From Bradyrhizobium oligotrophicum S58 (GTDB taxonomy: Bacteria; Pseudomonadota; Alphaproteobacteria; Rhizobiales; Xanthobacteraceae), in NCBI RefSeq assembly GCF_000344805.1, contig NC_020453.1:2852001-2916000 (forward strand): a DNA stretch of 64,000 bases, written 5' to 3'. Shown piece by piece: positions 6,708 to 23,039 of the stretch. The position numbers and the translations under genes were made by a program. The notes under the pieces were generated by a model. The model was not told where the DNA came from, ran no database searches, and was given only the letters and a program-made list of their open reading frames with translations. The stretch's first letter is position 1. The number at the start of each line of letters is the position of its first letter.

Positions 6708-7991
6708 ATGTCTCATGGCCGGAAGATTGCGGTGATAGGCCTTGGCTATGTCGGCCTGCCGGTCGCGGCTGCGTTCGCGCGGACAGGCTGCCCGGCGATC
6801 GGGTTCGACATCGATGCGGCCCGGGTCGCGGAGCTGAAGGACGCAAGGGACCGGACCTGCGAGGTCGATGCAGCCGATCTGCGCCGGCCGGGCCTGCGCT
6901 TCACCAGCGAGCCGGACGACATCGCGACTGCCGATTTTTTCATCGTCACCGTTCCGACCCCGATCGACAGCGCACGGCGGCCCGATCTCGGCGCCATGCT
7001 GGCCGCCACGCGCACGGTGGGAGCCGTTCTGAAGCGCGGCGACATCGTCGTCTATGAGTCGACCGTCTATCCGGGCGCCGTCGAGGAAGACTGCGTCCCG
7101 TTGCTGGAGAGCAGCTCGGGCTTGAAGGCGGGGGCCGATTTCAACGTCGGCTATTCGCCGGAGCGCATCAATCCCGGCGACAAGACCCATCGCTTCGAGA
7201 CCATCACCAAGGTGGTCTCGGCACAGAATCCGCAGACGCTCGCGATCGTCGCCGCCGTCTACGGCTCGGTGGTCACCGCCGGGATCCATCGCGCGCCTTC
7301 GATCAAGGTGGCCGAGGCCGCCAAGGTGATCGAGAACACCCAGCGCGATCTCAACATCGCCTTCATGAACGAGCTGTCGCTGATCTTCCAGGCGCTCGAG
7401 ATCGACACCGGAGACGTGCTCGCAGCCGCCGCGACCAAGTGGAACTTCCTGCCGTTCACCCCCGGCCTCGTCGGCGGCCACTGCATCGGCGTCGATCCTT
7501 ATTACCTCACCTATCGCGCGGAGAAGGCGGGCTACCATCCCGAGGTGATCCTTGCAGGCCGTCGCATCAACGACGAGATGGGCCGGCGCATCGCGCGCGA
7601 ATGCATCCGCGGATTGCTGCGACGAAAGGGCCGGGGTGGCCTCGTCACCATCCTGGGCATGACGTTCAAGGAGAACGTGCCGGACATCCGCAATTCGCGC
7701 GTGATCGACATCATCGGTGAATTGCAGTCCTTCGGCGTCGAGGTGCAGATCGCCGATCCGCTGGCCGATGCAGCGGCGGTGCACGAGGAGTACGGCATCG
7801 GCCTGACGGCGATCGAGGCGCTGCGTCCGGCCGACGCCGTCGTATTGGCCGTGTCGCACGATCAGTATCTCGCCGGAGGCTGGCCTCTTGTGCAGGGTCT
7901 GCTGCGCGAGGAGAGCGGCCTCGTGCTCGACGTGAAGATGAAGCTCGACCGCGCGAGCAAACCCACCGCCATCGAACTGTGGCGACCCTGA
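6708..7991 (+). CDS. nucleotide-sugar dehydrogenase (WbpO/TviB-like, UDP-HexNAc or UDP-Glc 6-dehydrogenase)
   Basis: Protein of 427 residues. The N-terminal Rossmann motif is IAVIGLGYVGLPVA, and the active-site block VGGHCIGVDPYYLT, with the catalytic Cys near residue 259, oxidises C6 of a UDP-sugar to the uronic acid using NAD. KENVPDIRNSR marks the C-terminal UDP-binding domain. This form is closer to the UDP-GalNAc/GlcNAc dehydrogenases (WbpO, TviB) than to plain UDP-glucose dehydrogenase, but the substrate cannot be fixed by eye. The ATG at 6708 follows GGAA by about ten bases; an upstream in-frame start at 6537 would add a non-conserved 57-residue tail. The epimerase gene follows after 10 bases, so the two are surely co-transcribed. 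Confidence 0.85.
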   Translation: MSHGRKIAVIGLGYVGLPVAAAFARTGCPAIGFDIDAARVAELKDARDRTCEVDAADLRRPGLRFTSEPDDIATADFFIVTVPTPIDSARRPDLGAMLAATRTVGAVLKRGDIVVYESTVYPGAVEEDCVPLLESSSGLKAGADFNVGYSPERINPGDKTHRFETITKVVSAQNPQTLAIVAAVYGSVVTAGIHRAPSIKVAEAAKVIENTQRDLNIAFMNELSLIFQALEIDTGDVLAAAATKWNFLPFTPGLVGGHCIGVDPYYLTYRAEKAGYHPEVILAGRRINDEMGRRIARECIRGLLRRKGRGGLVTILGMTFKENVPDIRNSRVIDIIGELQSFGVEVQIADPLADAAAVHEEYGIGLTAIEALRPADAVVLAVSHDQYLAGGWPLVQGLLREESGLVLDVKMKLDRASKPTAIELWRP

Positions 7992-8001
7992 CGGAGCGAC
8001 C

Positions 8002-9018
8002 ATGGCAGACCATCCCATCCTCGTCACCGGCGCGGCCGGCTTCATCGGCTTCCACCTGACGCAGCGGCTGCTCGCCGAGGGACGCCAGGTGATCGGGATC
8101 GACAACATCAATGCCTACTATGATCCGAAGCTGAAGGAGGCGCGCCTCGAGATCCTGAAGGCGCAGCCGGGTTTCGTTTTCCACAAGCTCGATCTCGTCG
8201 ATCGCGCCGGCATCAAGGCGTTGTTCGCCCAGCATCGCTTTCCCGCAGTCGTGCACCTCGCCGCCCAGGCCGGCGTGCGCTACTCGCTGGAAAATCCGCA
8301 CGCCTATGTCGACGCCAATCTCGAGGGCTTCATCAACGTGCTCGAGGGCTGCCGGCATCACGGCTGCGAGCATCTGCTGTTCGCCTCGTCATCGTCGGTC
8401 TATGGCGCCAATACGAAGCTGCCGTTCTCGGTCAGGGACAATGTCGACCATCCGATCAGCCTGTATGCGGCGAGCAAGAAGGCGAACGAGCTGATGGCGC
8501 ATTCCTACAGCCATTTGTACCAGCTGCCCGCCACCGGCCTGCGTTTCTTTACCGTCTATGGCCCCTGGGGCCGGCCGGACATGGCGATGTTCATCTTTGC
8601 CAAGGCGATCCTGGCAGGACAGCCGGTCAGGCTGTTCAATCACGGCCAGATGCGGCGTGATTTTACCTATGTCGACGACATCGTGCAGGCGATCTTTCGC
8701 CTGATCGGGCGTCCGCCACAGGGAAACCCGGATTGGGACGGAAACAAGCCCGACCCGTCGAGCAGCCGGGCGCCCTGGCGGATTTACAATATCGGCAACA
8801 ATCATCCCGAGCAGTTGCTGGACGTGATAACGCTGCTGGAGAAGGAATTCGGGCGGCCGGCGATCAAAGAGATGCTGCCGATGCAGCCCGGGGACGTCGA
8901 GGCGACCTATGCTGATGTCAGCGATCTCGAGCGGGACATCGGCTTCCGGCCGGCGACCTCGATCGCCGACGGCATCGGACGTTTCGCAAAATGGTATCGC
9001 GACTATCATCGGATTTGA
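8002..9018 (+). CDS. NAD-dependent UDP-glucuronate 4-epimerase-like protein
   Basis: Protein of 338 residues of the extended short-chain dehydrogenase family. The NAD motif GAAGFIGFHL is at residues 9-18 and the catalytic Tyr155/Lys159 pair lies in YAASK. FFTVYGPWGRPDM and RRDFTYVDDIV are hallmarks of the CapI/LspL group that interconverts UDP-glucuronate and UDP-galacturonate. Paired directly with the dehydrogenase, it would make an epimerised uronic acid for surface polysaccharide. A TviC-like UDP-HexNAcA epimerase role is the alternative. The next gene starts 12 bases downstream, suggesting a three-gene operon with manC. Confidence 0.85.
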   Translation: MADHPILVTGAAGFIGFHLTQRLLAEGRQVIGIDNINAYYDPKLKEARLEILKAQPGFVFHKLDLVDRAGIKALFAQHRFPAVVHLAAQAGVRYSLENPHAYVDANLEGFINVLEGCRHHGCEHLLFASSSSVYGANTKLPFSVRDNVDHPISLYAASKKANELMAHSYSHLYQLPATGLRFFTVYGPWGRPDMAMFIFAKAILAGQPVRLFNHGQMRRDFTYVDDIVQAIFRLIGRPPQGNPDWDGNKPDPSSSRAPWRIYNIGNNHPEQLLDVITLLEKEFGRPAIKEMLPMQPGDVEATYADVSDLERDIGFRPATSIADGIGRFAKWYRDYHRI

Positions 9019-9030
9019 CGGACTGATTTC

Positions 9031-10443
9031 ATGACCGGACGTATCATTCCCCTCATCATGTGCGGCGGCGCCGGGACCCGGCTGTGGCCGGCATCGCGGG
9101 AGGTTCGGCCGAAGCAGTTCCTGCCGCTGTTCGGCGCGCGCTCGACATTCCAGGACACGCTGCTGCGCGTCTCCGATGCCGACCTGTTCGCGCGGCCGAT
9201 CATCATCACCAACACGGCCTACCGCTTCATGGTGCTGGAGCAACTGGCCGAGATCGGCATCGAGGCCGACGTGCTGCTGGAGCCGATGCGGCGCGACTCC
9301 GGACCCGCGATCGCCGCCGGTGCGGCCTTCGCGCAATCCCGCGATCAGGACGCCGTCGTGCTGGCGCTCGCCGCCGACCATGTGGTGCGTGACACCGCCG
9401 CTTTCGTAGCGGCTTGCCGCCAGGGTCTGGCGGCGGCCGAGACCGGCCGCATCGTGACCTTCGGCGTCAATCCGGAGCGTGCCGCCACCGAATACGGCTA
9501 TATCAGCCCGGGTGCGGCGGTATCCGGAGAGGTGCGGGCGGTCGCCAAATTCGTCGAGAAGCCGGACCAGCCGACCGCCGAACGCTATATTCGCGAGGGC
9601 TATCTCTGGAACAGCGGCAACTTCATGTTCCGCGCGTCCGTGCTGCTCGACGAATACCGCAAATACGATGCAGCCAGCGTACAGACGGTGACTGATGCGG
9701 TCGCCAAGGCCGGCCGCGACCTCAGCTTCATCATCCTGGAGTCCGATGCCTTCGCCGCGGCCAAGCCGATCTCGATCGACTATGCCGTGATGGAGAAGAC
9801 CGAACGCGCCGCGGTGGCGCCGGTGTCGTGCGGCTGGTCGGATGTCGGCTCTTGGCATGCGGTCTGGGAACTGTCCGACAAGGACGGGCAGGGCAATGCC
9901 GCGCGCGGCCCCGCCGTGTTCGAGGATTCCCGTAATTGCAACGTCGTCACCGACAAGGCGCTGGTCGCGCTCGAAGGCGTCGACGATCTGGTCGTGGTGG
10001 CGGCTCAGGATGCCGTGCTGGTGTCGCGCCAGCGCGATGCCAACGGGCTGAAGCGGCTGGTCGCCAAGCTCAAGACCGTGGCGCCGGAGGTGACCGAGGC
10101 CCACATCAAGGTGCACCGCCCCTGGGGCAGCTATCAGTCGGTCGACAATGGCGAGCGCCATCAGGTCAAGCGCATCATCGTCAAGCCCGGCCAGCGGCTG
10201 TCGCTGCAGAAGCACTATCATCGCTCCGAGCACTGGATCGTGGTGCGCGGGGCTGCCCGGGTCACGGTGAACGAGACGGTCAAGACCGTCCATGAGAACG
10301 AATCGATCTATATCCCGATGGGCGCGGTGCACCGCCTGGAGAATCCGGGCAAGATCCTGCTGGAGCTGATCGAGGTCCAGACCGGGTCCTATCTCGGCGA
10401 GGACGACATCATCCGCATCGAGGACGATTACCGTCGCGAGTAG
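9031..10443 (+). CDS. manC: mannose-1-phosphate guanylyltransferase / mannose-6-phosphate isomerase
   Basis: Bifunctional protein of 470 residues, the standard length. The nucleotidyltransferase signature is CGGAGTRLWPASRE followed by RPKQFLPL; FVEKPDQPTAERY belongs to the sugar-phosphate site. The C-terminal cupin, about residues 350-465, carries GQRLSLQKHYHRSEHW, whose histidines bind the isomerase metal. The enzyme turns fructose-6-P-derived mannose-6-P, after a mutase step, into GDP-mannose. It is the last gene of the nucleotide-sugar operon and lies 70 bases upstream of the first TPR-OGT gene. Confidence 0.92.
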   Translation: MTGRIIPLIMCGGAGTRLWPASREVRPKQFLPLFGARSTFQDTLLRVSDADLFARPIIITNTAYRFMVLEQLAEIGIEADVLLEPMRRDSGPAIAAGAAFAQSRDQDAVVLALAADHVVRDTAAFVAACRQGLAAAETGRIVTFGVNPERAATEYGYISPGAAVSGEVRAVAKFVEKPDQPTAERYIREGYLWNSGNFMFRASVLLDEYRKYDAASVQTVTDAVAKAGRDLSFIILESDAFAAAKPISIDYAVMEKTERAAVAPVSCGWSDVGSWHAVWELSDKDGQGNAARGPAVFEDSRNCNVVTDKALVALEGVDDLVVVAAQDAVLVSRQRDANGLKRLVAKLKTVAPEVTEAHIKVHRPWGSYQSVDNGERHQVKRIIVKPGQRLSLQKHYHRSEHWIVVRGAARVTVNETVKTVHENESIYIPMGAVHRLENPGKILLELIEVQTGSYLGEDDIIRIEDDYRRE

Positions 10444-10513: not shown

Positions 10514-12736
10514 TTGCAAAGCACGATCGGATCGCGCGCGTTCCAGAACGCGCGCCTGCAGAAAAAGAACCGCAAGCAGGCCGATGGCCTGCTGCCGCAG
10601 GCCGTAGCGGCCTACCGCAGCGGCCGGCATGCGGATGCCCAGACGATCTGCGGACAAATCCTGGCGCTCGTGCCCGATCATTTCGAGGCCCTGCACCTCC
10701 TGGGTGCTTCCGCGCTCGACAGCGGCCGGCTCGATCTGGCGGAGCAGGCACTGGCCCGCGCCGTCGCGGTCGAACCGCGCAATGCCGAGGCTCAGGCCAA
10801 TCTCGGCCTCGTGCTCTCCAGCATGAAGCGCTACGAGGAGGCGCGTGCCGTCCAGGAGCGTGCGATCGCGCTGAAGCCGAATTTCGCGACGGCGCTGACC
10901 GGCCTCGGCAATACCCTGATGAACATGCAGCTGTTCGCGCAGGCGATCGAGGCGCATGACCGTGCCATCGCCGCCAAGCCCGACTATGCCGACGCCTATT
11001 GTAACCGCGGCATGGCGCAGCTGCTCCTGCTGCGGAACGAAGAAGCAAGGCAGAGCTTCGATCGTGCGCTGGCGCTGGCGCCCCGGCACATGCAGGCGAC
11101 GTTCGGCAAGGGTCTCGTCAACATCAATCTGCGGCATTTCGAGCAGGCGCTGGTTGCCTTCAATGCGGCGCTTGCGATCAAGCCGGATGCAGCGGCCGTG
11201 ATCGCGCAGCGTGGGCGCCTCTACATCCAGATGGCCCGGTTCGAGGAAGCCGAAGCCGATTTCAACGCGGCACTCGCCACCGATCCGATGCTGGAGACGG
11301 CGCTGCTCGGCAGGGCACATGTCTGCGTGCTCACCGAGCGGATCGCGCCGGCCATGGCCGCGTGCAAACGGGTGCTGGAGCGCAATCCGGCGTCGGAGGT
11401 CGCGCTGGCCTGGCTCGGTGCCTGTTTCGCCAAGCAGGGCGACACGGCCGCCGCGATCCAGCACTTCGACCGCGCGCTCGAGATCAAGCCGGATTTCGAG
11501 GACGCGATCCTGAAGAAGATCTTCGCACTCGATTTCTATCCCGGGGCCGATATCGCCGTGCATCAGGCCGTCCGGCGCGAATGGTGGGACCGGATCGGCG
11601 CGCACATTCCGCGGCTCGCACTCGGCGCGATCGACCGTGATGCGGAGCGCCGGATCACGGTCGGCTATGTGTCGTCCGACTTCCGCAGCCATTCGGCTGC
11701 GCTGACGTTCCTGCCGGTGCTGCGCCATCACGATCACCAGCCGTTCAAGATCATCTGCTACTCGTGCTCGCCGCTGGTGGATTCGGTGACGGAGCATTGC
11801 AAGGCCGCTTCCGATGGCTGGGTCGACGCCTGGCAGATGTCGGATGAGGAGCTGGCCGTGCGCATCCGCTCGGATCAGGTCGACATCCTCGTCGATCTCT
11901 CCGGGCATTCGGCCGGCAACCGCCTCACTTTGTTCGCGCGCAAGCCCGCACCGATCCAGGTGACGGCATGGGGCAATGCCACCGGCACCGGCCTGCCGAC
12001 CATGGACTACTTCTTTGCCGATCCGGTCACGGTGCCCGAAGCCGTCCGGCCGCTGTTCGCGGAAGAGGTCTACGATCTGCCGGCCCTGATCACCACGGAT
12101 CCGCTGCCGGGCGCGCAACCGACGCCGCTGCCGATGCTGCAGAATGGCTACGTTACCTTCGGCGTCTTCAACCGTGTCGACAAGATCTCCGATCAGGTCC
12201 TCGACGTCTGGTCGGCGCTGTTCCGCGCGCTGCCCGATGCACGCGTCGTGGTCAAGAACGGCGCGCTGGACGACAGCTTCCTGCGTGACGGGCTGATCGC
12301 ACGCTTCGTGGCCCATGGCATCGCGGAGAGCCGGCTGACGTGCCTCGGCTCGTCGATGCGGCAGGAGCATATCGCCGCCTTCGCCCTCGTCGACATCTCG
12401 CTCGATCCGTTCCCGCAGAACGGCGGCGTGAGCACGTGGGAGTCGCTGCAGGCCGGCGTGCCGGTCGTGGCCAAGCTGGGCAACAGCTCGGCGTCGCGCG
12501 CCGGCGGTGCGATCGTCAAGGCTGTCGGCCTCGACGACTGGGTGGCTGAGGACGATGAAGCTTATGTCGCGATCGCCCTGAAGTACGCTGCAGATCCCTC
12601 CGCATTGGCACGACTGAGAGCCGAGCTGCCGGCGCGCGTCGCGAGCTCGCCTGCCGGCAATGTCGTCACCTATACGAGAAAGGTCGAGGAAGGCTATCGC
12701 ACGTTCTGGCGGCGCTACTGCGCCGCGGGCGGCTGA
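10514..12736 (+). CDS. TPR / O-GlcNAc-transferase-like (SPINDLY, GT41) protein, paralogue 1
   Basis: Protein of 740 residues starting at TTG; GGAG about eight bases upstream supports this start, and the same layout recurs before the three following paralogues. The N-terminus has the motif GSRAFQNARLQKKNRKQAD shared by all four. About nine TPR units fill residues 25-340. The C-terminal GT41 catalytic region has GYVSSDFRSHSAAL (putative catalytic His), DILVDLSGHSAGNRL, the UDP-phosphate Lys in FNRVDKIS, and DPFPQNGGVSTWESLQAG. OGT-family enzymes transfer a sugar from a nucleotide sugar to Ser/Thr of cytosolic proteins, with the TPR superhelix selecting targets. The substrate is unknown. The gene follows manC closely. 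Confidence 0.85.
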   Translation: MQSTIGSRAFQNARLQKKNRKQADGLLPQAVAAYRSGRHADAQTICGQILALVPDHFEALHLLGASALDSGRLDLAEQALARAVAVEPRNAEAQANLGLVLSSMKRYEEARAVQERAIALKPNFATALTGLGNTLMNMQLFAQAIEAHDRAIAAKPDYADAYCNRGMAQLLLLRNEEARQSFDRALALAPRHMQATFGKGLVNINLRHFEQALVAFNAALAIKPDAAAVIAQRGRLYIQMARFEEAEADFNAALATDPMLETALLGRAHVCVLTERIAPAMAACKRVLERNPASEVALAWLGACFAKQGDTAAAIQHFDRALEIKPDFEDAILKKIFALDFYPGADIAVHQAVRREWWDRIGAHIPRLALGAIDRDAERRITVGYVSSDFRSHSAALTFLPVLRHHDHQPFKIICYSCSPLVDSVTEHCKAASDGWVDAWQMSDEELAVRIRSDQVDILVDLSGHSAGNRLTLFARKPAPIQVTAWGNATGTGLPTMDYFFADPVTVPEAVRPLFAEEVYDLPALITTDPLPGAQPTPLPMLQNGYVTFGVFNRVDKISDQVLDVWSALFRALPDARVVVKNGALDDSFLRDGLIARFVAHGIAESRLTCLGSSMRQEHIAAFALVDISLDPFPQNGGVSTWESLQAGVPVVAKLGNSSASRAGGAIVKAVGLDDWVAEDDEAYVAIALKYAADPSALARLRAELPARVASSPAGNVVTYTRKVEEGYRTFWRRYCAAGG

Positions 12737-12937
12737 ATGCCGTAAGCAAGGCAGTTGGAGGCCTGTGTCGGCCTAGCCAGGATCGCTACGTTTCGCGCGA
12801 ATCAGGCGCCGCGTGCTAGCGTTGCGGGTAGTATTTGCGAGCGGGCGGTCAGCAAGCCGGCCTGAATCTCGGAGCGGCCACACCAGCCGCGTGAGTTGCG
12901 TTTGTCCCATCCGGCTCATCTGATCTGGAGACGATCC

Positions 12938-15151
12938 TTGGCTGGCAATGTCGGCTCGCGCGCGTTTCAGAACGCTCGGCTCGAAAAGAAGAACCGCAAG
13001 CAGGCCGAGCCGTTGCTGGCGGCGGCTGCCGCCGCGCACCGCGCCCGTCGGCCGGCCGAGGTGAGGGCGCTGTGCAGCCAGGTCCTGGCGCTGCTGCCGG
13101 ACCACGCCGGCGCGTTGCGGCTGTTGGGCATGGCTGCGCTCGATGCCGGCGCATTGTCCGACGCCGCGGCGGCACTGACCCGCGCCGTGGAGGTCGATCC
13201 GCGCGACGTCGACGCTCACGCCAATCTCGGCATCGTGCTGTCCAATATGGGGCGTCACGCCGAGGCCCGCGGGCACCAGGAGCGTGCGGTTGCGCTGGTC
13301 CCGAATTTTTTTGCGGGCTGGAACAGTCTCGGCAGCACCCTGCTGCGGCTGGAGCAGGCGGAGCAGGCGATCGCGGCTTATGACCGCGCGCTTGCGTTGA
13401 AGCCCGACTACGCCGAGGCCCATTGCAACCGTGGCATGGCGCTGCTCCTCGTCGACCGCAGTGCCGAGGCGCTGCAGAGCTTCGATCGCGCCTTGGCGTT
13501 CAATCCGCGCTACGTGCAGGCCCTCCATGGAAAGGGCATGGTGAACCTCGGCTTGCGCCGTGTCGATGCGGCGCTCGCCGCCTTCGATGCGGCGCTCGCG
13601 ATCAGTCCGGACGCGGCGAGCGTCCTTGCCGAGCGCGGCCGGGCCTACCTGCAGGCCGGCCGGTTCGATCAGGCCAAGGCGGATTTCGACGCGGCGCTCG
13701 CGCACGCGCCCGATCTCGAAGCCGCGCTGCTCGGCCGGGCCCATCTCGGCGTAGACAAGAACGATGTCGCACCCGCCGTCGCGGCCTGCCGCAAGGTGCT
13801 GGAGCAGAACCCGAACTCGGAGGCCGCCTGGACCTGGCTCGGCGGCTGCTATGCCAAGCAGGGCGAGATTGACGCGGCCCTGCAGCACTTCGATCATGCG
13901 CTCGCGCTCAAGCCCGACTGTCGGGATGCGATTGCGGCCAAGATCTTCACCCTCGACTTCCTGCCCGACGCCGATTTTGCCAGGCAGCAGGCGGTCCGCC
14001 GCGAATGGTGGGAGCGGATCGGGGCGAGGCTTCCGCGCGCTGCGCTCAGCCCGCGCAACATGGACCCGGAGCGGCGGCTCGTCATCGGCTATGTCTCCGC
14101 GGATTTCCGCAATCATTCGGCGGCCTTCACCGTCCTTCCGGTGTTGAGCCATCACGATCGCGCCCGGTTCCAGGTGATCTGCTACACGTGCTCGGCGCGG
14201 CAGGATGAGATCACGGCGCGCTGCCGGGCGGCCGCTGACGTCTGGGTCGAGGCCTGGCAGATGTCGGACGGCGATCTGGCCGATCGCATCCAGGCCGACG
14301 GAGTCGATATCCTGGTGGATCTGTCCGGCCACTCGGCCGGCAATCGGCTCACGCTGTTCGCCAGCAAGCCGGCGCCGATCCAGGTGACGGCCTGGGGCCA
14401 TGGCACCGGGACCGGCCTGCCGACGATCGACTACTTCTTCGCCGACCCGGTGACGGTGCCGTCCGGCGTGCGTCATTTGTTCGCCGAGCAGGTCTACGAC
14501 CTGCCCGCGGTGATCACCACCGATCCGCTCCCGGGAGCGCCATCCACGACGTTGCCGATGCTGCGGACTGGCCACGTCACGTTCGGCGTCTTCAACCGGA
14601 TCGACAAGATCTCCGATGCGGCTCTGGCGGTCTGGGCGCGGCTGATGGCGCTGCTGCCGGACTCCCGCATCGTGATCAAGAATTCCGCGATCGACGACAA
14701 TTTTCTTCGCGAAGGGCTCATTGCGCGTTTCGTGGCGCATGGCGTGGCAGCGGAGCGCGTCATCTGCCTGGGATCGACGACGCGGGAGCAGCACGTCGCG
14801 CAGTTCGCCCATGTCGACATCTCGCTCGATCCGTTTCCCCAGAATGGCGGCGTGAGCACCTGGGAGTCGCTCCAGGCGGGCGTGCCCGTGGTCGCCAGGC
14901 TCGGCTGCAGCACGGCCTCGCGGGCGGCCGCCGCCATCAACACGGCGCTCGGGCTTGACGACTGGGTGGCCGGGGACGATGACGGCTATCTCGCCATTGC
15001 CCTGAAACACGCCGCTGATACTGCCGAGCTGGCACGTCTCAGAGCGGAATTGCCAGCGCGTGTCGCGACCTCCGCGGCGGGCAATGTCGAGACCTACACC
15101 CGCAAGGTCGAGGAGGGCTACCGGCAATTCTGGCGCCGCTACTGCGCCTGA
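12938..15151 (+). CDS. TPR / OGT-like (GT41) protein, paralogue 2
   Basis: Protein of 737 residues. The TTG at 12938 was chosen because GGAG precedes it and because the chain from there (LAGNVGSRAFQNARLEKK) lines up with the other paralogues; the frame is open to 12896 but that part is not conserved. It has about nine TPRs and then the GT41 region: GYVSADFRNHSAAF, FNRIDKIS and NGGVSTWESLQAG. It is the most divergent of the four in the first TPRs (AAAAHRARRPAEV) and lies after a 201-base gap that could hold its own promoter. Presumably a protein glycosyltransferase with a different target range; this is inference. Confidence 0.85.
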   Translation: MAGNVGSRAFQNARLEKKNRKQAEPLLAAAAAAHRARRPAEVRALCSQVLALLPDHAGALRLLGMAALDAGALSDAAAALTRAVEVDPRDVDAHANLGIVLSNMGRHAEARGHQERAVALVPNFFAGWNSLGSTLLRLEQAEQAIAAYDRALALKPDYAEAHCNRGMALLLVDRSAEALQSFDRALAFNPRYVQALHGKGMVNLGLRRVDAALAAFDAALAISPDAASVLAERGRAYLQAGRFDQAKADFDAALAHAPDLEAALLGRAHLGVDKNDVAPAVAACRKVLEQNPNSEAAWTWLGGCYAKQGEIDAALQHFDHALALKPDCRDAIAAKIFTLDFLPDADFARQQAVRREWWERIGARLPRAALSPRNMDPERRLVIGYVSADFRNHSAAFTVLPVLSHHDRARFQVICYTCSARQDEITARCRAAADVWVEAWQMSDGDLADRIQADGVDILVDLSGHSAGNRLTLFASKPAPIQVTAWGHGTGTGLPTIDYFFADPVTVPSGVRHLFAEQVYDLPAVITTDPLPGAPSTTLPMLRTGHVTFGVFNRIDKISDAALAVWARLMALLPDSRIVIKNSAIDDNFLREGLIARFVAHGVAAERVICLGSTTREQHVAQFAHVDISLDPFPQNGGVSTWESLQAGVPVVARLGCSTASRAAAAINTALGLDDWVAGDDDGYLAIALKHAADTAELARLRAELPARVATSAAGNVETYTRKVEEGYRQFWRRYCA

Positions 15152-15235
15152 ATGCGTCCGCGGCGGTCTCGATCGATGCCGGTTATTAATCACCTCTCTG
15201 CAGATACTTCTCTGTAGATCTATTGGAGGTCGTCT

Positions 15236-17455
15236 TTGGCGAGCGATGTCGGTTCCCGCGCGTTCCAGAATGCGAGGCTTCAGAAGAAGCATCGCAAGCA
15301 GGCCGATGCGCTGATGCAACAGGCCGTCGCTGCCTATCGCGGCGGCCGCCGCGCTGAAGCCCAGGCGATCTGCGGGCAGATCCTGGCGCTGCTGCCCGAT
15401 CATTTCGATGCGCTGCATCTGCTCGGCGTGTCGGCGCTCGATGGCGGCCGGCTCGATCTCGCGGAGCAGGCTTTGACGAAGGCGGTGGAGATCGAGCCGC
15501 GTCACGCCGAGGCGCTCTCCAACCTCGGGCTCGCGCTGTTCAACCGCAAGCGCTTCGAGGACGCGCGCAAATGCCAGGAGCGGGCGATCGCGCTGAAGCC
15601 TACGCTCGTGGTTGCGCAGACCGGCCTCGGCAATACGCTGATGCGGCTGGGCCATCCGGAGGAGGCGATCGCCGCTCATGACCGGGCGATCGCACTGAAG
15701 CCGGACTATGCCGACGCCTATTGCAACCGCGGCATGGCGCTGCTGCCGCTCGGTCGCAACGCCGACGCCAATCGGAGCTTCGACCGTGCGCTGTCGCTCA
15801 ATCCGCGGCACATGGAGGCGATGTTCGGCAAGGGGCTGGCCATTATCAACCTGCATCATTTCGACGACGCGCTCGCCGCGTTCGATGCCGCGCTCGCTCT
15901 CAAGCCCGGCGCCGCGCAGGTGCTGGCGCAGCGTGGCCGGCTGCATCAGATCGCCGGGCGCTTCGAGCAGGCCAAGGCTGATTTCGACGCCGCGCTGGTC
16001 GGTGATCCCTGGCTGGAAATGGCGCTGCTCGGCAAGGCCCAGCTCGGCCATTTCAAGGACGTCGCGCAATCCGTGGATGCCTGCCGCAAGGTGCTGGAGC
16101 AGAATCCGCTGTCCGAGGATGCCTGGCTGTGGCTCGGCGTCTGCTACGGCAAGCAGGGCGAGGTCGCCGCCGCCGTCGCGCATTTCGATCGCGCCCTGGA
16201 GATCAGGCCGGATTTTGCCGAGGCGATGACGGCAAAGATCTTCACCCTCGAGTTCATGCCGGATGCCGATTTCGAGCTGCATCAGGCGGCCAGGCGCGAG
16301 TGGTGGCAACGGATCGGCAGCCGGATTCCCCAGCGACGGTTGCTGCCGCGCAATCTCGATCCGGAGCGGCGCCTCATCATCGGCTACGTCTCGTCCGATT
16401 TCAGGAATCACTCGGCCGCACTGACCTACCTGCCCGTGCTGAAGCATGCCAACCGACAGGATTTCCAGGTCTGCTGCTATGCCTGCTCGCCGGTGCAGGA
16501 TGCGGTGACGGCGCAGTTCCGCGGCTGCGCCGATGTCTGGGTCGATGCCTCGCAGATGTCCGACGACGAACTGGCGGATTGCATCACGGCCGACGGCGTC
16601 GACATCCTGGTCGATCTCTCCGGCCATTCCGCCGGCAATCGTCTGCCGTTGTTTGCCCGCAAGCCTGCACCGGTTCAGGTGACCGCGTGGGGCAGCGGCA
16701 CCGGCACGGGCCTGCCGACGATCGACTACTTCTTGGCCGATCCGGTCACGATCCCCGAGGCGGCGCGTCATCTGTTCGCCGAGCAGGTCTACGACCTGCC
16801 GGCGGTCATCACCACGGACGCGCTGCCGGGCATCGAGCCCACGCCGCTGCCGATGTTGCACAATGGCCATGTGACCTTCGGCGTGTTCAATCGGCTGGAC
16901 AAGATCTCCGACCCGGCGCTCGCGGTCTGGACAGCTCTCATGCAGCGGGTGCCGGACTCCCGCATCGTGATCAAGAGCAGCTCGCTCGACGATCCCTTGC
17001 TGCGTGATCGTCTGCTGGCGCGTTTTGCCGCCCATGGCGTGACGCAGGAGCGCATCACCTGTCTCGGCTGGTCGACGCGCGAGCAGCAGATCGCCCAGTT
17101 CGCCCAGGTCGACATCTCGCTCGATCCGTTCCCGCAGAATGGCGGCGTCAGCACCTGGGAATCGTTGCAGGCCGGCGTGCCCGTGATCGCCAGGCTCGGA
17201 CGGAGCGCGGCGTCGCGCGCAGCCGGCGCCATCGTCACGGCCGTCGGGCTCGGCGACTGGGTGGCTGAGGACGATGACAGCTACATCGCGATCGCCGTGA
17301 AATGGGCGGCGCAGCCGGCGGAGTTGGCCAAGCTGCGGACGGAGCTCCCGGCGCGCGTTGGCAACTCCGCGGCCGGCAATGTCGAGACCTACGCGCGCAA
17401 GGTCGAGGAAGGCTATCGCCTGTTCTGGCGGCGTCATTGTGCGAGCGTCGGCTGA
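15236..17455 (+). CDS. TPR / OGT-like (GT41) protein, paralogue 3
   Basis: Protein of 739 residues from a TTG preceded by GGAGG at 15225-15229. Its N-terminus, MASDVGSRAFQNARLQKK, is the same as in paralogue 4, and the TPR part of the two is nearly identical over long stretches (for example LSNLGLALFNRKRFEDARK), pointing to a recent duplication. The GT41 region keeps GYVSSDFRNHSAAL, DILVDLSGHSAGNRL, FNRLDKIS and NGGVSTWESLQAG. The 84-base gap before it suggests co-transcription with paralogue 2. Confidence 0.85.
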   Translation: MASDVGSRAFQNARLQKKHRKQADALMQQAVAAYRGGRRAEAQAICGQILALLPDHFDALHLLGVSALDGGRLDLAEQALTKAVEIEPRHAEALSNLGLALFNRKRFEDARKCQERAIALKPTLVVAQTGLGNTLMRLGHPEEAIAAHDRAIALKPDYADAYCNRGMALLPLGRNADANRSFDRALSLNPRHMEAMFGKGLAIINLHHFDDALAAFDAALALKPGAAQVLAQRGRLHQIAGRFEQAKADFDAALVGDPWLEMALLGKAQLGHFKDVAQSVDACRKVLEQNPLSEDAWLWLGVCYGKQGEVAAAVAHFDRALEIRPDFAEAMTAKIFTLEFMPDADFELHQAARREWWQRIGSRIPQRRLLPRNLDPERRLIIGYVSSDFRNHSAALTYLPVLKHANRQDFQVCCYACSPVQDAVTAQFRGCADVWVDASQMSDDELADCITADGVDILVDLSGHSAGNRLPLFARKPAPVQVTAWGSGTGTGLPTIDYFLADPVTIPEAARHLFAEQVYDLPAVITTDALPGIEPTPLPMLHNGHVTFGVFNRLDKISDPALAVWTALMQRVPDSRIVIKSSSLDDPLLRDRLLARFAAHGVTQERITCLGWSTREQQIAQFAQVDISLDPFPQNGGVSTWESLQAGVPVIARLGRSAASRAAGAIVTAVGLGDWVAEDDDSYIAIAVKWAAQPAELAKLRTELPARVGNSAAGNVETYARKVEEGYRLFWRRHCASVG

Positions 17456-17524
17456 TACGGCAGTGTGCTGGAGTTGAGTTGGTCCGCGTTGCAGGATCTG
17501 TAAGTCACCTTCTGGAGGCCATCT

Positions 17525-19744
17525 TTGGCAAGCGATGTCGGGTCCCGCGCATTTCAGAATGCGCGGCTGCAGAAGAAGCACCGCAAGCAGGCTGATGAGC
17601 TGCTGCCGCGTGCCGTCGCGGCCTATCGCGCCGGCCGTCCGGCCGAAGCGCAGGCAATCTGTGGGCAGGTGCTGGCGCTGTTGCCCGATCATTTCGACGC
17701 CCTGCATCTGCTCGGCGTGGTGGCGCTCGATGGCGGTCAGCTCGATCTCGCGGAGCAGGCTTTGACGAAGGCCGTCGAGATCGATCCGCGTCACGCCGAG
17801 GCGCTCTCCAATCTCGGTCTCGCGCTGTTCAACCGCAAGCGCTTCGAGGATGCGCGCAAATGCCAGGAGCGGGCGATCGCGTTGAAGCCTAACATGGTCG
17901 TCGCGCTCACCGGCCTCGGCAACACGCTGATGCGGCTGGGCCGTCCGGAGGAGGCGATCGCTGCGCATGACCGGGCGATCGCGCTGAAGCCGGATTACGC
18001 CGACGCCTACTGCAATCGCGGCATGGCGCTGCTGCCGCTTGCGCGCAATGTGGAGGCCAATCAGAGCTTCGACCGCGCGCTCTCTCTCAATCCGCGCCAC
18101 ATGGAGGCGATGTTCGGCAAGGGATTGGCCAGCATCAACCTGCGCCATTCCAATGACGCGCTCGCTGCGTTCGATGCCGCGCTCGCGATCAGGCCGCACG
18201 CGGCGCAGGTGTTGGCGCAGCGCGGCCGTCTGCACCAGCAGGCCGGGCGGTTCGATCCCGCCATGGCCGACTTCACAGCGGCACTGGCGATCGATCCGCG
18301 GCAGGACATGGCGCTGCTGGGCTTCGCCCAGCTGAGCGTGATCAAGGACAACATCGCGCCGGCGATGGACGCCTGCCGCAAGGTGCTGGAGCAGAATCCG
18401 GAATCGGAGGTGGCCTGGACCTGGCTCGGCGAATGCTTCTGCAAGCAGGGCGATCTCGCCACCGCCTTGCAGCACTTCGAGCGCGCGCTCGAGATCAAGC
18501 CGGACTTTGGTGATGCGATCACCGCGAAGATATTCCTGCTCGACTTCATGCCGGACACCGACTTCGCTCAGCACCAGGCGGTGCGCCGGGAATGGTGGAC
18601 CAGGATCGGCAGCAAGATCACCCGCAGGCCGCCGCCGCTTCGCGACCGCGATCCGGAGCGGCGGCTCACCATCGGCTACGTCTCGTCCGATTTCAGGAAT
18701 CACTCGGCTGCGCTGGTGTTCCTGCCGGTGCTGCGCCACCACGATCACAAGGCCTTCAAGGTCGTCTGCTACTCCTGCTCGCCGCTGCAGGACGGCATGA
18801 CCGAGCGCTGCCGCGCGGCCGCGGACCTCTGGGTCGACGCCTGGCAGATGTCCGACGAGGAGCTGACCGATCGCATCGCGGCCGACGAGGTCGACATCCT
18901 GGTCGATCTCTCCGGCCATTCCGCCGGCAACCGGCTGCCGGTGTTTGCCCGCAAGCCGGCGCCGGTCCAGGTCACCGCCTGGGGCAGCGGCACCGGCACG
19001 GGGCTTCCGACCATCGACTATTTCTTCGCCGATCCGGTGACGGTGCCGGAGGAGGCGCGCCCTCTGTTTGCCGAACAGGTCTATGACCTGCCGGCCGTGA
19101 TCACCACCGATCCGCTGCAGGGGTGGCAACCGACGCCGCTGCCGATGCTGCGCAACGGCTACGTCACCTTCGGCGTGTTCAACCGCATCGACAAGATCTC
19201 CGACCCCGCGCTTGCGCTCTGGTCGCGTCTGATGGGCGCGCTGCCGGACTCGCGCATCGTCATCAAGAACGGCGCGCTCGATGAGCCCTTGCTGCGCGAT
19301 GGCCTCGTCGCGCGGTTCGTGGCGCATGGCATCGCGCAGGAGCGCATCACCTGCCTCGGTCTCTCGACGCGCGATCAGCACATCGCGCAGTTCGCCGCGA
19401 TCGACATGTCGCTCGATCCGTTCCCGCAGAACGGCGGCGTCAGCACCTGGGAATCGCTGCAGGCCGGCGTGCCCGTGATCGCCAAGCTCGGCCACGGCGC
19501 CGCGGCGCGCGCGGCCGCGGCCATCAACACCGCGGTCGGGCTCGGCGAGTTCGTGGCGGAGGACGATGACGGCTACATCGCCATCGCCCTCAGATATGCA
19601 GCGCAGCCCGCGGAGCTGGCGAAGCTGCGCGCGGAGCTGCCGGCGATGGTTGCCGGCTCTGCGGCGGGCGACGTCGAGACCTACACGCGCAAGGTCGAGG
19701 AGGGCTATCGTCTGTTCTGGCACCACTACTGCGCCTCCTCCTGA
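17525..19744 (+). CDS. TPR / OGT-like (GT41) protein, paralogue 4
   Basis: Protein of 739 residues from a TTG preceded by GGAGG at 17513-17517, the same spacing as in paralogue 3. About nine TPRs are followed by the GT41 region with the candidate catalytic His near residue 393 (SSDFRNHSAAL) and the candidate UDP-binding Lys near residue 558 (FNRIDKIS). In human OGT the donor-site segment reads NGHTTGMD; all four paralogues here read NGGVSTWE, replacing several donor-contacting residues, so the nucleotide sugar may not be UDP-GlcNAc. The gene ends 9 bases before the stop of the convergent DUF1223 gene. Confidence 0.85.
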   Translation: MASDVGSRAFQNARLQKKHRKQADELLPRAVAAYRAGRPAEAQAICGQVLALLPDHFDALHLLGVVALDGGQLDLAEQALTKAVEIDPRHAEALSNLGLALFNRKRFEDARKCQERAIALKPNMVVALTGLGNTLMRLGRPEEAIAAHDRAIALKPDYADAYCNRGMALLPLARNVEANQSFDRALSLNPRHMEAMFGKGLASINLRHSNDALAAFDAALAIRPHAAQVLAQRGRLHQQAGRFDPAMADFTAALAIDPRQDMALLGFAQLSVIKDNIAPAMDACRKVLEQNPESEVAWTWLGECFCKQGDLATALQHFERALEIKPDFGDAITAKIFLLDFMPDTDFAQHQAVRREWWTRIGSKITRRPPPLRDRDPERRLTIGYVSSDFRNHSAALVFLPVLRHHDHKAFKVVCYSCSPLQDGMTERCRAAADLWVDAWQMSDEELTDRIAADEVDILVDLSGHSAGNRLPVFARKPAPVQVTAWGSGTGTGLPTIDYFFADPVTVPEEARPLFAEQVYDLPAVITTDPLQGWQPTPLPMLRNGYVTFGVFNRIDKISDPALALWSRLMGALPDSRIVIKNGALDEPLLRDGLVARFVAHGIAQERITCLGLSTRDQHIAQFAAIDMSLDPFPQNGGVSTWESLQAGVPVIAKLGHGAAARAAAAINTAVGLGEFVAEDDDGYIAIALRYAAQPAELAKLRAELPAMVAGSAAGDVETYTRKVEEGYRLFWHHYCASS

Positions 19745-19753
19745 CCTCGGCAA

Positions 19754-20464
19754 CTATAGCCGCGCGGCACCGACGATGCGCCCGTCCGCCGCTTCGAGAA
19801 TCACCGCGGCGTCCTCGCCTTCGGGCATCGGCTCGGACAGGCGCAGCGCGGTGCCGCTCCAATCCGCCAGCGCGCGGACCGAGCGCACCACGTTCAGCTC
19901 CTCCAGCGTGCGACCGCCATTCTCGCCGCGGCCGATCGCCGTTTCATGCCGATGATCGAAGCCGACCAGGAGGACGCGGCCGCGTCCTTCACCGCCGCCG
20001 ACTTCGACCGTGAGCTTGTCGCCATGGCGTGCAAGCTTGAGCGGCGTCGCGGTGGCGCGCGCGGCTCTGGCGCGATCGATCGCGGGGCCGACCTCGGCCC
20101 TGTTTGATCCGACATGGCTGGTGACGCCGTCGACGACGATCTCCGGCGTGTAGGAGCCGTCGCCGAAGCGGCTGCCGTAGCGGGCCTGGCGGTCGGTGGC
20201 GGCCGGTAATGAGAACGGATCCTTCCAGCCCAGCCGGTCCCAATAGGTGACGTGAAAGGCGAGGGGCAGCACGTCGCGGCGCTGCCGCACCATCTCGTTC
20301 AGATAGGCATTTGCAGGCGGGCAGGAGGAGCAGCCCTGCGAGGTGAAAAGCTCGATGACGACGGGCCGATCCGTTGCGGCAGCCGATGGCGACCACGGGG
20401 CAAATGATGCGAGCAGCACGGCGAAGGTGGAGGCACGGCGGAGCGAGGCGAGGCTGAGGGTCAT
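19754..20464 (-). CDS. secreted DUF1223 (thioredoxin-fold) protein
   Basis: Protein of 236 residues with a signal peptide (cleavage near residue 30, ...SPSAAA). The mature chain begins with the DUF1223 core: VIELFTSQGCSSCPPAN, giving a CxxC pair at Cys45/Cys48, then HVTYWDRLGWKDPF and YTPEIVVDG, where the Pro is in the cis-Pro position of thioredoxin folds. The family is common in rhizobia and its role is unknown; a periplasmic thiol-disulfide role is a reasonable guess. GGGAGA lies 7 bases upstream of the ATG. It is convergent with the last OGT paralogue and probably unrelated to it. Confidence 0.85.
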   Translation of the reverse strand: MTLSLASLRRASTFAVLLASFAPWSPSAAATDRPVVIELFTSQGCSSCPPANAYLNEMVRQRRDVLPLAFHVTYWDRLGWKDPFSLPAATDRQARYGSRFGDGSYTPEIVVDGVTSHVGSNRAEVGPAIDRARAARATATPLKLARHGDKLTVEVGGGEGRGRVLLVGFDHRHETAIGRGENGGRTLEELNVVRSVRALADWSGTALRLSEPMPEGEDAAVILEAADGRIVGAARL

Positions 20465-20824: not shown

Positions 20825-21832
20825 ATGAGTTCCAAGGGGGCGGGCCACAAGGCCGAGCTGAGGCAGGCGCTGCGAGTAGGCGTCATCGGGGCCGGCGTGA
20901 TGGGCAGCAATCATGCCCGTGTGCTCGCCGGACTGCCTGACGTACACCTCGTCGGCGTCGTCGATCCGCTTCCGGCCCATCGCACCCGCGTCACCGAGCT
21001 TGCGAACTGCCCGACCTTCGAGACCCTCGATCAGCTCGCCGCCGAAGGCGTCGACGCCGTCACCATTGCCGCTCCGACGCACCTGCATCATGAGCTCGCG
21101 CTCGCCTGCATCGCGCGCAAGGTGCATCTGATGGTCGAGAAGCCGATCGCCTCGACGGTGGACGAGGGCAGGGAGATCGTCTCGGCCGCGCATCGCGCCG
21201 GCGTCACCCTGATGATCGGCCATGTCGAGCGCTTCAATCCGGCGGTGGCCGCGATCAAGAAGGCGATCGCCGGCGAGGACATCTTGTCGATCGCCATCAC
21301 CCGCGTCGGCCCGTTCCCGCCGCGCATGTCGAATGTCGGCGTCGTCATCGATCTCGCCGTGCACGACATCGATCTGATCCGCTGGTTCACCGAATCCGAC
21401 ATCATCGAGGTGCAGCCGCAGCTGTCGAGCGCGGTGGCCGAGCGCGAGGACATCGCGCTGCTGCAGTTCCGCACTGCGTCGGGCGTGCTCGCCCACATCA
21501 ATACCAACTGGCTGACGCCGTTCAAGGCGCGCAACGTCACCGTGGCGACCCGCGGCAAGTACATCATGGGCGATCTGCTCACCCGCCAGGTCACCGAGTG
21601 CTTCGGCTTCAAGCCGGATGGCAGCTACTCGATGCGGCATCTGCCCGTCGGCCATGACGAGCCGCTGCGCGCCGAACTGATCGCCTTCCTGCACGCGGTG
21701 CGCTCGGGCACGGCGCCCGCCGTGACCGGCGACGAGGGCGTCGCGAGTCTCGCGATCGCCACGCAGTGCCTGGAAACTTCGAGCCATCGCCCGGCCGAGG
21801 CCGCCGCAGCCAAGCGGCGCGCCGTCGGCTAG
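20825..21832 (+). CDS. Gfo/Idh/MocA-family NAD-dependent sugar oxidoreductase
   Basis: Protein of 335 residues from the ATG at 20825, which puts the Rossmann motif VGVIGAGVMGSNHA at residues 18-31. MVEKPIAS, near residues 103-110, is the EKP motif of the family, and VVIDLAVHDIDLIRWF carries the conserved active-site Asp and His. The closest functional type appears to be UDP-GlcNAc 3-dehydrogenase (WlbA-like), because the next gene encodes a sugar aminotransferase and the two together would make a 3-amino sugar nucleotide. That pairing is inference. The aminotransferase start lies 55 bases downstream. Confidence 0.8.
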   Translation: MSSKGAGHKAELRQALRVGVIGAGVMGSNHARVLAGLPDVHLVGVVDPLPAHRTRVTELANCPTFETLDQLAAEGVDAVTIAAPTHLHHELALACIARKVHLMVEKPIASTVDEGREIVSAAHRAGVTLMIGHVERFNPAVAAIKKAIAGEDILSIAITRVGPFPPRMSNVGVVIDLAVHDIDLIRWFTESDIIEVQPQLSSAVAEREDIALLQFRTASGVLAHINTNWLTPFKARNVTVATRGKYIMGDLLTRQVTECFGFKPDGSYSMRHLPVGHDEPLRAELIAFLHAVRSGTAPAVTGDEGVASLAIATQCLETSSHRPAEAAAAKRRAVG

Positions 21833-21887: not shown

Positions 21888-23039
21888 ATGAACCAGCACC
21901 TGCGTCATCAGCCCATTCCGTTCATCGACACCGCCGCGCAGCGCCAGCGGCTCGGCAAGTCGCTCGACGACGCCGTCGCCCGCGTGCTCGCGCATTGCCA
22001 GTTCCTCGGCGGCCCCGAAATCATCCAGCTCGAAGCGGAGCTCGCAGCCTACTGCGGCGCCAAATATGCGGTGAGCTGCTCCAGCGGCACCGACGCGCTG
22101 CTGATGGTGCTGATGGCCCAGGGCATCGGCCCGGGCGACGCCGTGCTGTGCCCGTCCTTCACCTTCTGCGCGACCGGCGAAGCCGTGGCGCTGACCGGCG
22201 CCACGCCGGTGTTCGTCGACGTGCTGGAGGAGACCTTCAACATCGATCCGGCCTCGCTTCGCCGCGGCATTGCGACCGCCAAGCGCCTTGGCCTCAAGCC
22301 CAAGGCGGTGATCCCCGTCGATCTGTTCGGCCAGAGCGCCGACCATGATGCGGTGGCCGCGATCGCTGGGGATGAGGGCCTGTTCGTGCTCGACGACGCC
22401 GCGCAAGGCTTTGGCGCCAGCTACAAGGGCCGCCGCATCGGCACCTTCGGGCTCGCGACCGCCACCAGCTTCTATCCGGCCAAGCCGCTCGGCTGCTTCG
22501 GCGACGGCGGCGCCATCCTCACCGATGATGCCGGCCTGCTGGAGCGCCTGCGCAGCGTGCGCGCCCATGGCGGCGGCAGCGACAAATACGACAATGTCCG
22601 CCTCGGCCTCACCGCGCGGCTCGACACCATCCAGGCCGCGGTCCTGATCGAGAAGCTCAAGATTTTCGACGACGAGATCGCCGTCCGCAACGCGGTGGCC
22701 GAGCGCTACACGGCGGCACTCGCCGATGTGGTCAAGGTGCCGCGCCTCGCCGAAGGCTGCACCTCGGTCTGGGCGCAATACACCATCCGCCTGCCCAAGG
22801 GCGTCGATCGCGACACCTTCGCTGCGGCGTTGAAGGCGCAGGGTGTTCCGACCGCGATCTATTATCCGAAGTCGATGCACCAGCAGACCGCCTACCGGAT
22901 CTTCCCGTCCGCCGATGGCGGCCTGCCGGTCAGCGAGCAGCTCTCCGCTGACGTCATCAGCCTGCCGATGCACGCCTATCTGGACGAGCCGACGCAAGGG
23001 CGCATCATCGACGTCGTCCGCGGCGCCGTGGCGGCTTAA
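21888..23039 (+). CDS. DegT/DnrJ/EryC1/StrS-family sugar aminotransferase
   Basis: Protein of 383 residues from the ATG at 21888; a TTG four codons upstream is also possible. It is a PLP-dependent transaminase that aminates keto-sugar nucleotides. CSSGTDALLMVL binds the PLP phosphate, DDAAQGFGA contains the Asp that contacts the pyridine nitrogen, and Lys199 in SFYPAKPLGCFGDGG is the Schiff-base lysine. With the oxidoreductase upstream it would convert a UDP-HexNAc into a diamino sugar nucleotide. This could serve the glycan genes or donate to the OGT-like enzymes; neither is shown. Confidence 0.88.
   Translation: MNQHLRHQPIPFIDTAAQRQRLGKSLDDAVARVLAHCQFLGGPEIIQLEAELAAYCGAKYAVSCSSGTDALLMVLMAQGIGPGDAVLCPSFTFCATGEAVALTGATPVFVDVLEETFNIDPASLRRGIATAKRLGLKPKAVIPVDLFGQSADHDAVAAIAGDEGLFVLDDAAQGFGASYKGRRIGTFGLATATSFYPAKPLGCFGDGGAILTDDAGLLERLRSVRAHGGGSDKYDNVRLGLTARLDTIQAAVLIEKLKIFDDEIAVRNAVAERYTAALADVVKVPRLAEGCTSVWAQYTIRLPKGVDRDTFAAALKAQGVPTAIYYPKSMHQQTAYRIFPSADGGLPVSEQLSADVISLPMHAYLDEPTQGRIIDVVRGAVAA

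Follow-up and report, generated by a model that had tools for sequence, protein, structure and literature searches.

Four tandem TPR-GT41 genes with an altered donor loop in Bradyrhizobium oligotrophicum, a candidate cytosolic protein-glycosylation system

How GT41 glycosyltransferases choose their sugar donors and their targets is an open question. For Arabidopsis SPINDLY (SPY), the parts of PMC9715652 used here describe K665 as the essential lysine, give roles to N661, H495 and S496, propose that Y744 (C917 in human O-GlcNAc transferase, hOGT) sets donor choice and report a significantly decreased activity for T748A. The same parts present the bacterial enzymes XcOGT and TtOGT as being without clear native substrates (PMC9715652). 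Caulobacter FlmG, a cytosolic enzyme that combines TPRs with a GT-B domain, modifies six flagellins and needs pseudaminic acid, according to the portion consulted of PMC7591256. Among bradyrhizobia, BRADO4235 and BRADO7123 of ORS278 have been described, in the sections used of PMC3899966, as TPR-containing relatives of O-GlcNAc transferase that belong to a gene set specific to Nod-independent bradyrhizobia and were candidates for mutagenesis. No study of the array described below was recognised in the literature searched.

The window analysed here is a stretch of 64,000 nucleotides from Bradyrhizobium oligotrophicum S58 (NC_020453.1, positions 2,852,001 to 2,916,000), in which an earlier sequence-only reading had noticed four same-strand TPR-GT41 genes in a row. 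This arrangement was borne out, with copy 1 (p1, 10514..12736, 740 aa), copy 2 (p2, 12938..15151, 737 aa, mechanical ORF start 12896), copy 3 (p3, 15236..17455, 739 aa) and copy 4 (p4, 17525..19744, 739 aa) all on the plus strand and separated by gaps of 201, 84 and 69 bases. Each of the four genes has a TTG start codon preceded by a GGAG-type site, and a TGA stop; a TGA flagged in copy 2 is, by its coordinates, the terminal stop of that gene. TTG also predominates among 81 related ORFs of at least 680 aa (TTG 71, ATG 5, GTG 4, one off the edge) in a count that favoured Shine-Dalgarno starts, and a separate count made without that preference was mostly TTG as well. Copies 2, 3 and 4 share 67, 68 and 72% identity with copy 1, and copies 3 and 4 share 79% with each other. 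A recent foreign import of the array was unsupported by base composition, the G+C content of the four genes being 0.665–0.686 versus 0.658 in the window outside them. The promoter and terminator scan gave no more sites than shuffled sequence, and the operon structure is therefore read from the gaps alone. A 2,326-codon open frame lies antisense across copies 2 to 4 (12773-19753, minus strand) and is most probably a side effect of the G+C-rich codon usage.

Copy 4 was modelled with AlphaFold2 on a 38-sequence alignment (mean pLDDT 92.3, pTM 0.84). The predicted fold comprises nine helix pairs of the TPR type (residues ~23-324) and a cap pair, together with a GT-B domain; the joining of the TPR superhelix to GT-B is supported by the model and PDB matches for copy 4 and by alignment for the other copies. 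The top PDB fold match of the model was SPY (E 1.5e-47), followed by human OGT and TtOGT, the last superposing on it at 2.1 Å over 520 columns, and SPY also came first in a PDB sequence search (E 9e-102). All four copies passed the PF13844 cut-off in a profile search of the own genome, copy 1 scoring 137.4 bits against a cut-off of 25 and matching many TPR models in addition, so that both the TPR and the GT41 motifs claimed from sequence were recovered. The genome's best PF13844 match is a different GT41 protein without TPR matches, of 408 aa as called (L023:9117-10343, minus strand), with ABC transporter genes nearby.

Inactive catalytic residues in every copy had been named by the sequence-only reading as the outcome that would speak against it, and the sequences do not show this. 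The catalytic lysine (SPY K665, hOGT K842) is present in all four copies and in 81 of the 82 aligned rows, and the positions aligned with SPY N661, H495 and S496 are likewise kept in all four. The copies therefore look like intact cytosolic GT41 enzymes that are probably active. One difference is confined to copy 3, which together with its four orthologues carries Gln where SPY has the base-stacking His H728; among array copies this change occurs in p3 only.

The distribution of such genes was examined in 61 Bradyrhizobium genomes, with 18 candidates scored per genome and a tandem run defined as two or more close relatives (E 1e-170 or better). Among the matches listed, a relative at E ≤1e-170 occurs in 21 of the 61 genomes, and 16 genomes, among them the own one, have tandem runs. 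Genome G030 has a second, divergent pair of GT41 genes side by side (L064:9759-14334, minus strand, ~30% identity to copy 4), which was excluded from the tandem count. An order-wide sample of 249 genomes, searched with four candidates scored per genome, contained eight that match at 1e-120; six of these belong to this genus, which is represented by nine genomes in the sample, and two to other families. Gene calls beyond the array come from a home-made gene finder based on codon usage. Two further neighbours were recorded in this survey, a GSCFA-family gene with weak TPR matches between two array copies of Tv2a-2 (L033:6197-7600, plus strand) and a sulfotransferase-family gene tail to tail with a solo TPR-GT41 gene in G060 (L065:6982-8277, plus strand).

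Other arrays occupy a second place, between an aapP-like amino-acid ABC transporter ATPase gene and a cysK-like cysteine synthase gene (the aap locus). These flanking genes lie on the same contig in 60 pairs and on different contigs in G053 and G033; two weaker AapP-like matches of G015 were omitted from the spacing count. Where array copies lie between the flanks, in 16 genomes, the distance is 2,989-9,528 bases; for the other 44 pairs (43 genomes) it is 23-2,739 bases (median 133). In the own genome the site is empty, with 65 bp between the flanking genes. A quick IQ-TREE analysis with SH-aLRT support only was run on 82 of 85 rows, leaving out three rows below 600 aa (the L028 partial gene and two pieces of a frameshifted L040 copy); the underlying alignment set omitted L035-L037, which are distant or short, and L038, which is the same place as L027. 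One clade holds 21 of the 22 rows of the photosynthetic clade and another holds the 40 aap-locus copies, with support of 100 each. "Photosynthetic clade" is our analysis label for all seven loci; BTAi1, STM3809 and others are termed photosynthetic in the part used of PMC4743980. Because the clades are separate and the aap site is empty in the own genome, the aap arrays represent a separate expansion, and a similar array arose independently at a second site in other bradyrhizobia.

The donor loop has been altered in the same way at both loci. It reads Q-N-G-G-V-S-T in all four window copies and Q-N-G-G-[V/I/A]-S-T in most relatives. The position of SPY Y744 and hOGT C917 is Gln in 73 of the 73 rows with a letter there, which cover the array, aap, Tv2a-2, own-solo, L054/L056/L068 and 710-aa groups, and is Gln in one of eight more distant rows. 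Of 81 rows across all groups, 80 have lost the Thr at SPY T748 and hOGT T921, which is replaced by Val in the four window copies. None of the four copies thus carries the donor signature of O-GlcNAc transferase (C917 and the N-G-H-T-T loop) or that of SPINDLY (Y744 and T748), the latter being replaced by Gln and Val. This shared change of the loop suggests one donor common to the copies at both loci and different from those of OGT and SPINDLY. Loss of the Thr at the T748 position also makes weak activity possible. Two Gmd (GDP-mannose 4,6-dehydratase) genes are over cut-off in the own genome, and a GDP-6-deoxy sugar could therefore be made. O-GlcNAcase (PF07555) had no match in the own genome, in a search that was also silent in every control genome. 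Taken together, the array is real, conserved and recurrent, with enzymes that are probably active and a donor loop that is unusual.

Different loops were seen in more distant proteins. One L064 copy, a more distant GT41, has the loop F-N-G-G-T-T and keeps a SPY T748-type Thr. In G248, from another family of the order, a single open frame of 2,106 aa (L079:7126-13446, plus strand) encodes three consecutive TPR-GT41 modules, all with the loop H-N-A-G-T-T-T and a T748-type Thr; this protein is a fused form of a tandem array.

Upstream of the window array, on the plus strand, are a nucleotide-sugar dehydrogenase (6732..7991, TIGR03026 over cut-off), a gene of the NAD-dependent sugar epimerase/dehydratase family (8002..9018) and a ManC-type GMP-PMI gene (9031..10443, TIGR01479 over cut-off), which ends 70 bases before copy 1 and could be co-transcribed with it. 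Downstream, a DUF1223 protein gene (19754..20464, minus strand) forms the border of the array in the photosynthetic clade and in Tv2a-2, followed by a GnnA-like UDP-GlcNAc 3-dehydrogenase gene (20825..21832, plus strand; NF040723, 262.6 bits, below the cut-off of 450) and a DegT-family aminotransferase gene (21888..23039, plus strand), presumably GnnB from its position beside GnnA. The lipid A of Bradyrhizobium is built on a 2,3-diaminoglucose backbone and contains galacturonic acid and mannose (PMC6102379, in the part used), sugars that could come from the activity of the flanking GnnAB-, dehydrogenase/epimerase- and ManC-type genes. The sequence-only reading had taken the oxidoreductase-aminotransferase pair as a possible maker of a special donor sugar for the array. 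This proposal was not upheld, as the GnnA-like gene is present as a single copy in 60 of the 61 genomes, array or not (the 61st, G044, is an assembly of ~1,310 contigs), which fits lipid A. It is also countered by the related arrays of other species, which adjoin an amino-acid ABC transporter; at one such aap-type locus (L047) none of the annotated neighbours is a nucleotide-sugar gene. The donor would then be independent of local sugar genes, and, as the neighbours differ between the two loci, a common neighbourhood was set aside as a guide to function.

An 11-gene run (L020:4885-14917, minus strand) ends ~16 kb upstream of the array. Its transketolase halves, heptose-kinase-like gene and dehydratases match a described O-antigen (bradyrhizose) operon, and its dehydratase gene shows two mismatches in 23 bases to a gdh primer of the ORS285 O-antigen operon. 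The portion used of PMC4743980 describes that operon with gdh in ORS285 and gives a gdh-rfaL spacing of 40-44 kb. Five Wzy_C matches occur in the genome, and the best, an rfaL candidate, is ~36 kb from the L020 dehydratase gene. From the operon match and this spacing, which is near that of the paper, the photosynthetic-clade array sits in an LPS region; the aap arrays are elsewhere in setting. The enzymes might accordingly be glycosyltransferases of LPS or another glycan that carry TPR scaffolds, as the O-antigen-type run with gdh (PMC4743980) and the GnnAB-, ManC- and dehydrogenase/epimerase-type flanks would suggest. We consider this unlikely. The second set of arrays adjoins an amino-acid transporter, and the annotated neighbours of the two solo copies in the own genome include no LPS genes. 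The nearest solved relatives, SPY and hOGT, act on proteins, and a long TPR superhelix would suit a protein ligand.

The copies themselves have been kept under constraint. Their dN/dS against orthologues is 0.11-0.15 (11 comparisons) versus 0.04-0.10 for five flanking genes, which indicates purifying selection on each of the four copies, looser than on the flanks. In the comparison of array conservation across Bradyrhizobium that the sequence-only reading had proposed, the p1-p4 order was found to be kept in the photosynthetic clade except in STM 3843. The orthologues of p1 (5 rows), p2 (3), p3 (5) and p4 (6) form separate clades with SH-aLRT of 100 and the same gene order. Copy identity is not universal: two copies of STM 3843 pair together outside p1-p4, and its third groups with the solo copy of the own genome at 1.996 Mb. 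B. aeschynomenes 83002 and BTAi1 have no p2 orthologue in their arrays, and SRS-191 is without p3.

These irregularities bear on the idea that the copies are redundant duplicates, all doing the same job and kept for dosage or by chance, with loss ongoing. Copy number does vary, from three to four in photosynthetic-clade arrays seen whole and from one to four at the aap locus. In G005 an aap-locus copy is frameshifted and split over two frames (L040:8220-10426, minus strand), and is a decaying member of a four-gene array. The pairing of the STM 3843 copies and the dN/dS of the array above that of its flanks point the same way. We nevertheless regard redundancy as improbable, because species other than STM 3843 keep separate orthologue clades, the change at the H728 position is confined to p3, and the largest differences between p3 and p4 fall in TPRs 7-9. 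Over residues 1-240, p3 and p4 are 84-89% alike, much as p3 orthologues are among themselves (84-90%); over residues 241-340, the region of greatest p3/p4 difference, they are 60-68% alike versus 75-91% among p3 orthologues. This pattern points to N-terminal exchange or unequal constraint, with the TPRs adjacent to the catalytic domain being kept apart.

With regard to target choice, copy-specific columns were compared between concave and other TPR positions, for which we assume two alternative position sets. In the photosynthetic clade, with 19 of 22 rows used and three STM 3843 rows omitted, copy-specific columns make up 15 of 54 concave and 21 of 252 other positions (p = 2.5e-4), or 15 of 43 versus 21 of 159 when only variable columns are counted (p = 0.003). 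The second position set gave p = 0.007, and p = 0.06 among variable columns. TPRs 7-9 alone showed no significant concave excess (p = 1 and 0.19), and the enrichment was absent in the aap array (3 of 54 versus 15 of 252, p = 1; 34 of 40 rows used, the omitted six falling outside the three large copy groups). Divergence of the concave surface as a general rule therefore failed in the aap clade and in TPRs 7-9 alone, and the result lends slight support to diverged target choice among the photosynthetic-clade copies. TPR position 6, which we take to be the place of the hOGT Asn ladder, is Asn in only two of the nine repeats of copy 4.

A specific protein target would be flagellin, if the copies were FlmG-like enzymes whose TPRs bind flagellin and whose GT domain attaches a nonulosonic acid to it ahead of export. 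FlmG offers a likeness as an alphaproteobacterial cytosolic TPR plus GT-B flagellin modifier (PMC7591256, in the part used), and ~102 kb downstream of the array lie three flagellin genes, one of them annotated. A related TPR-GT41 gene of G037, with the donor loop M-N-G-G (L061:408-2657, minus strand), adjoins a stretch (L061 2820-9200) that holds a GlcNAc 2-epimerase-family gene, a GHMP kinase gene, NeuB and a CMP-sugar-synthetase-type gene. Among the matches listed and uncorrected for kinship, NeuB is somewhat commoner in genomes with close relatives (13 of 21 versus 13 of 40, p = 0.03) and in those with tandem runs (10 of 16 versus 16 of 45, p = 0.08). However, NeuB had no match in the own genome, in a search that was positive in nine of 14 control genomes, and the FlmG/pseudaminate mechanism is therefore unlikely here, a rejection limited to this genome and not extended to the genus. 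Six of the 16 tandem-run genomes are also without a NeuB match among the matches listed, and no flagellin gene was found among the annotated array neighbours (the window flanks and L047). The part consulted of PMC4823718 held nothing on glycosylation of Bradyrhizobium flagella. Overall, we give the flagellin explanation a low chance, although glycosylation of flagellin with another sugar is possible.

A cytosolic protein-glycosylation system whose copies have diverged in specificity, much as the sequence-only reading had suggested, remains the best account in view of the four retained lysines, the purifying selection and the copy identities kept apart in most species of the clade, without the donor-sugar part of that suggestion. 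Four distinct target specificities, as that reading put it, are possible. We put at roughly 0.52 the probability that the array encodes four soluble GT41 enzymes, each of which would add an activated sugar to Ser/Thr of particular cytosolic proteins picked by its own TPR superhelix. The sugar would probably be the same for all copies and not that of OGT, which uses UDP-GlcNAc, or SPINDLY, which uses GDP-fucose. The set would have arisen through tandem duplication within the LPS region in photosynthetic bradyrhizobia, separately from the expansion at the other locus, and the copies would have been retained because their targets diverged. More tentatively, and with clearly less confidence, we propose a GT41 subfamily that evolved in Bradyrhizobium with a re-shaped pocket for a sugar new to the family, expanded twice at two unrelated loci into ordered tandem sets with a common donor and different cytosolic protein targets. 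If the reading of the array is true, a paralogue set whose members share a donor pocket and differ in their TPRs would amount to a natural experiment in donor and target choice, in culturable hosts with close relatives that are without single copies or have the set elsewhere.

Of the known systems, Arabidopsis SPINDLY, a GDP-fucose protein O-fucosyltransferase, is the most similar to the array by PDB sequence (9e-102) and by fold. It likewise joins a TPR superhelix to a GT41 GT-B domain that lacks the OGT insert, and the equivalents of its K665, N661, H495 and S496 are kept. The SPY loop is Y-A-G-T-T-T whereas that of the array is Q-N-G-G-V-S, and the tandem bacterial arrangement belongs to the array. 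Human and fly O-GlcNAc transferases share the TPR plus GT41 architecture and the Lys842 equivalent, but the array is without their intervening domain (split PF13844 match), has lost the equivalents of C917, H920 and T921 and has Asn at TPR position 6 in two of nine repeats. TtOGT (Thermobaculum terrenum, 5DJS) and XcOGT (2JLB) are, like the array, bacterial TPR-GT41 proteins without the insert; the residue that selects the donor is Tyr in these two enzymes (PMC9715652, in the part used) and Gln in the array, and TtOGT has three TPRs (PMC4683255, in the part used) in contrast to nine in the copy 4 model. Caulobacter FlmG, likened here by description and not by sequence, is also an alphaproteobacterial cytosolic TPR plus GT-B protein, and its TPR domain gives target choice (PMC7591256, in the part used). 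FlmG is a protein of 596 aa that depends on pseudaminic acid, whereas the genome that carries the array has no NeuB match.
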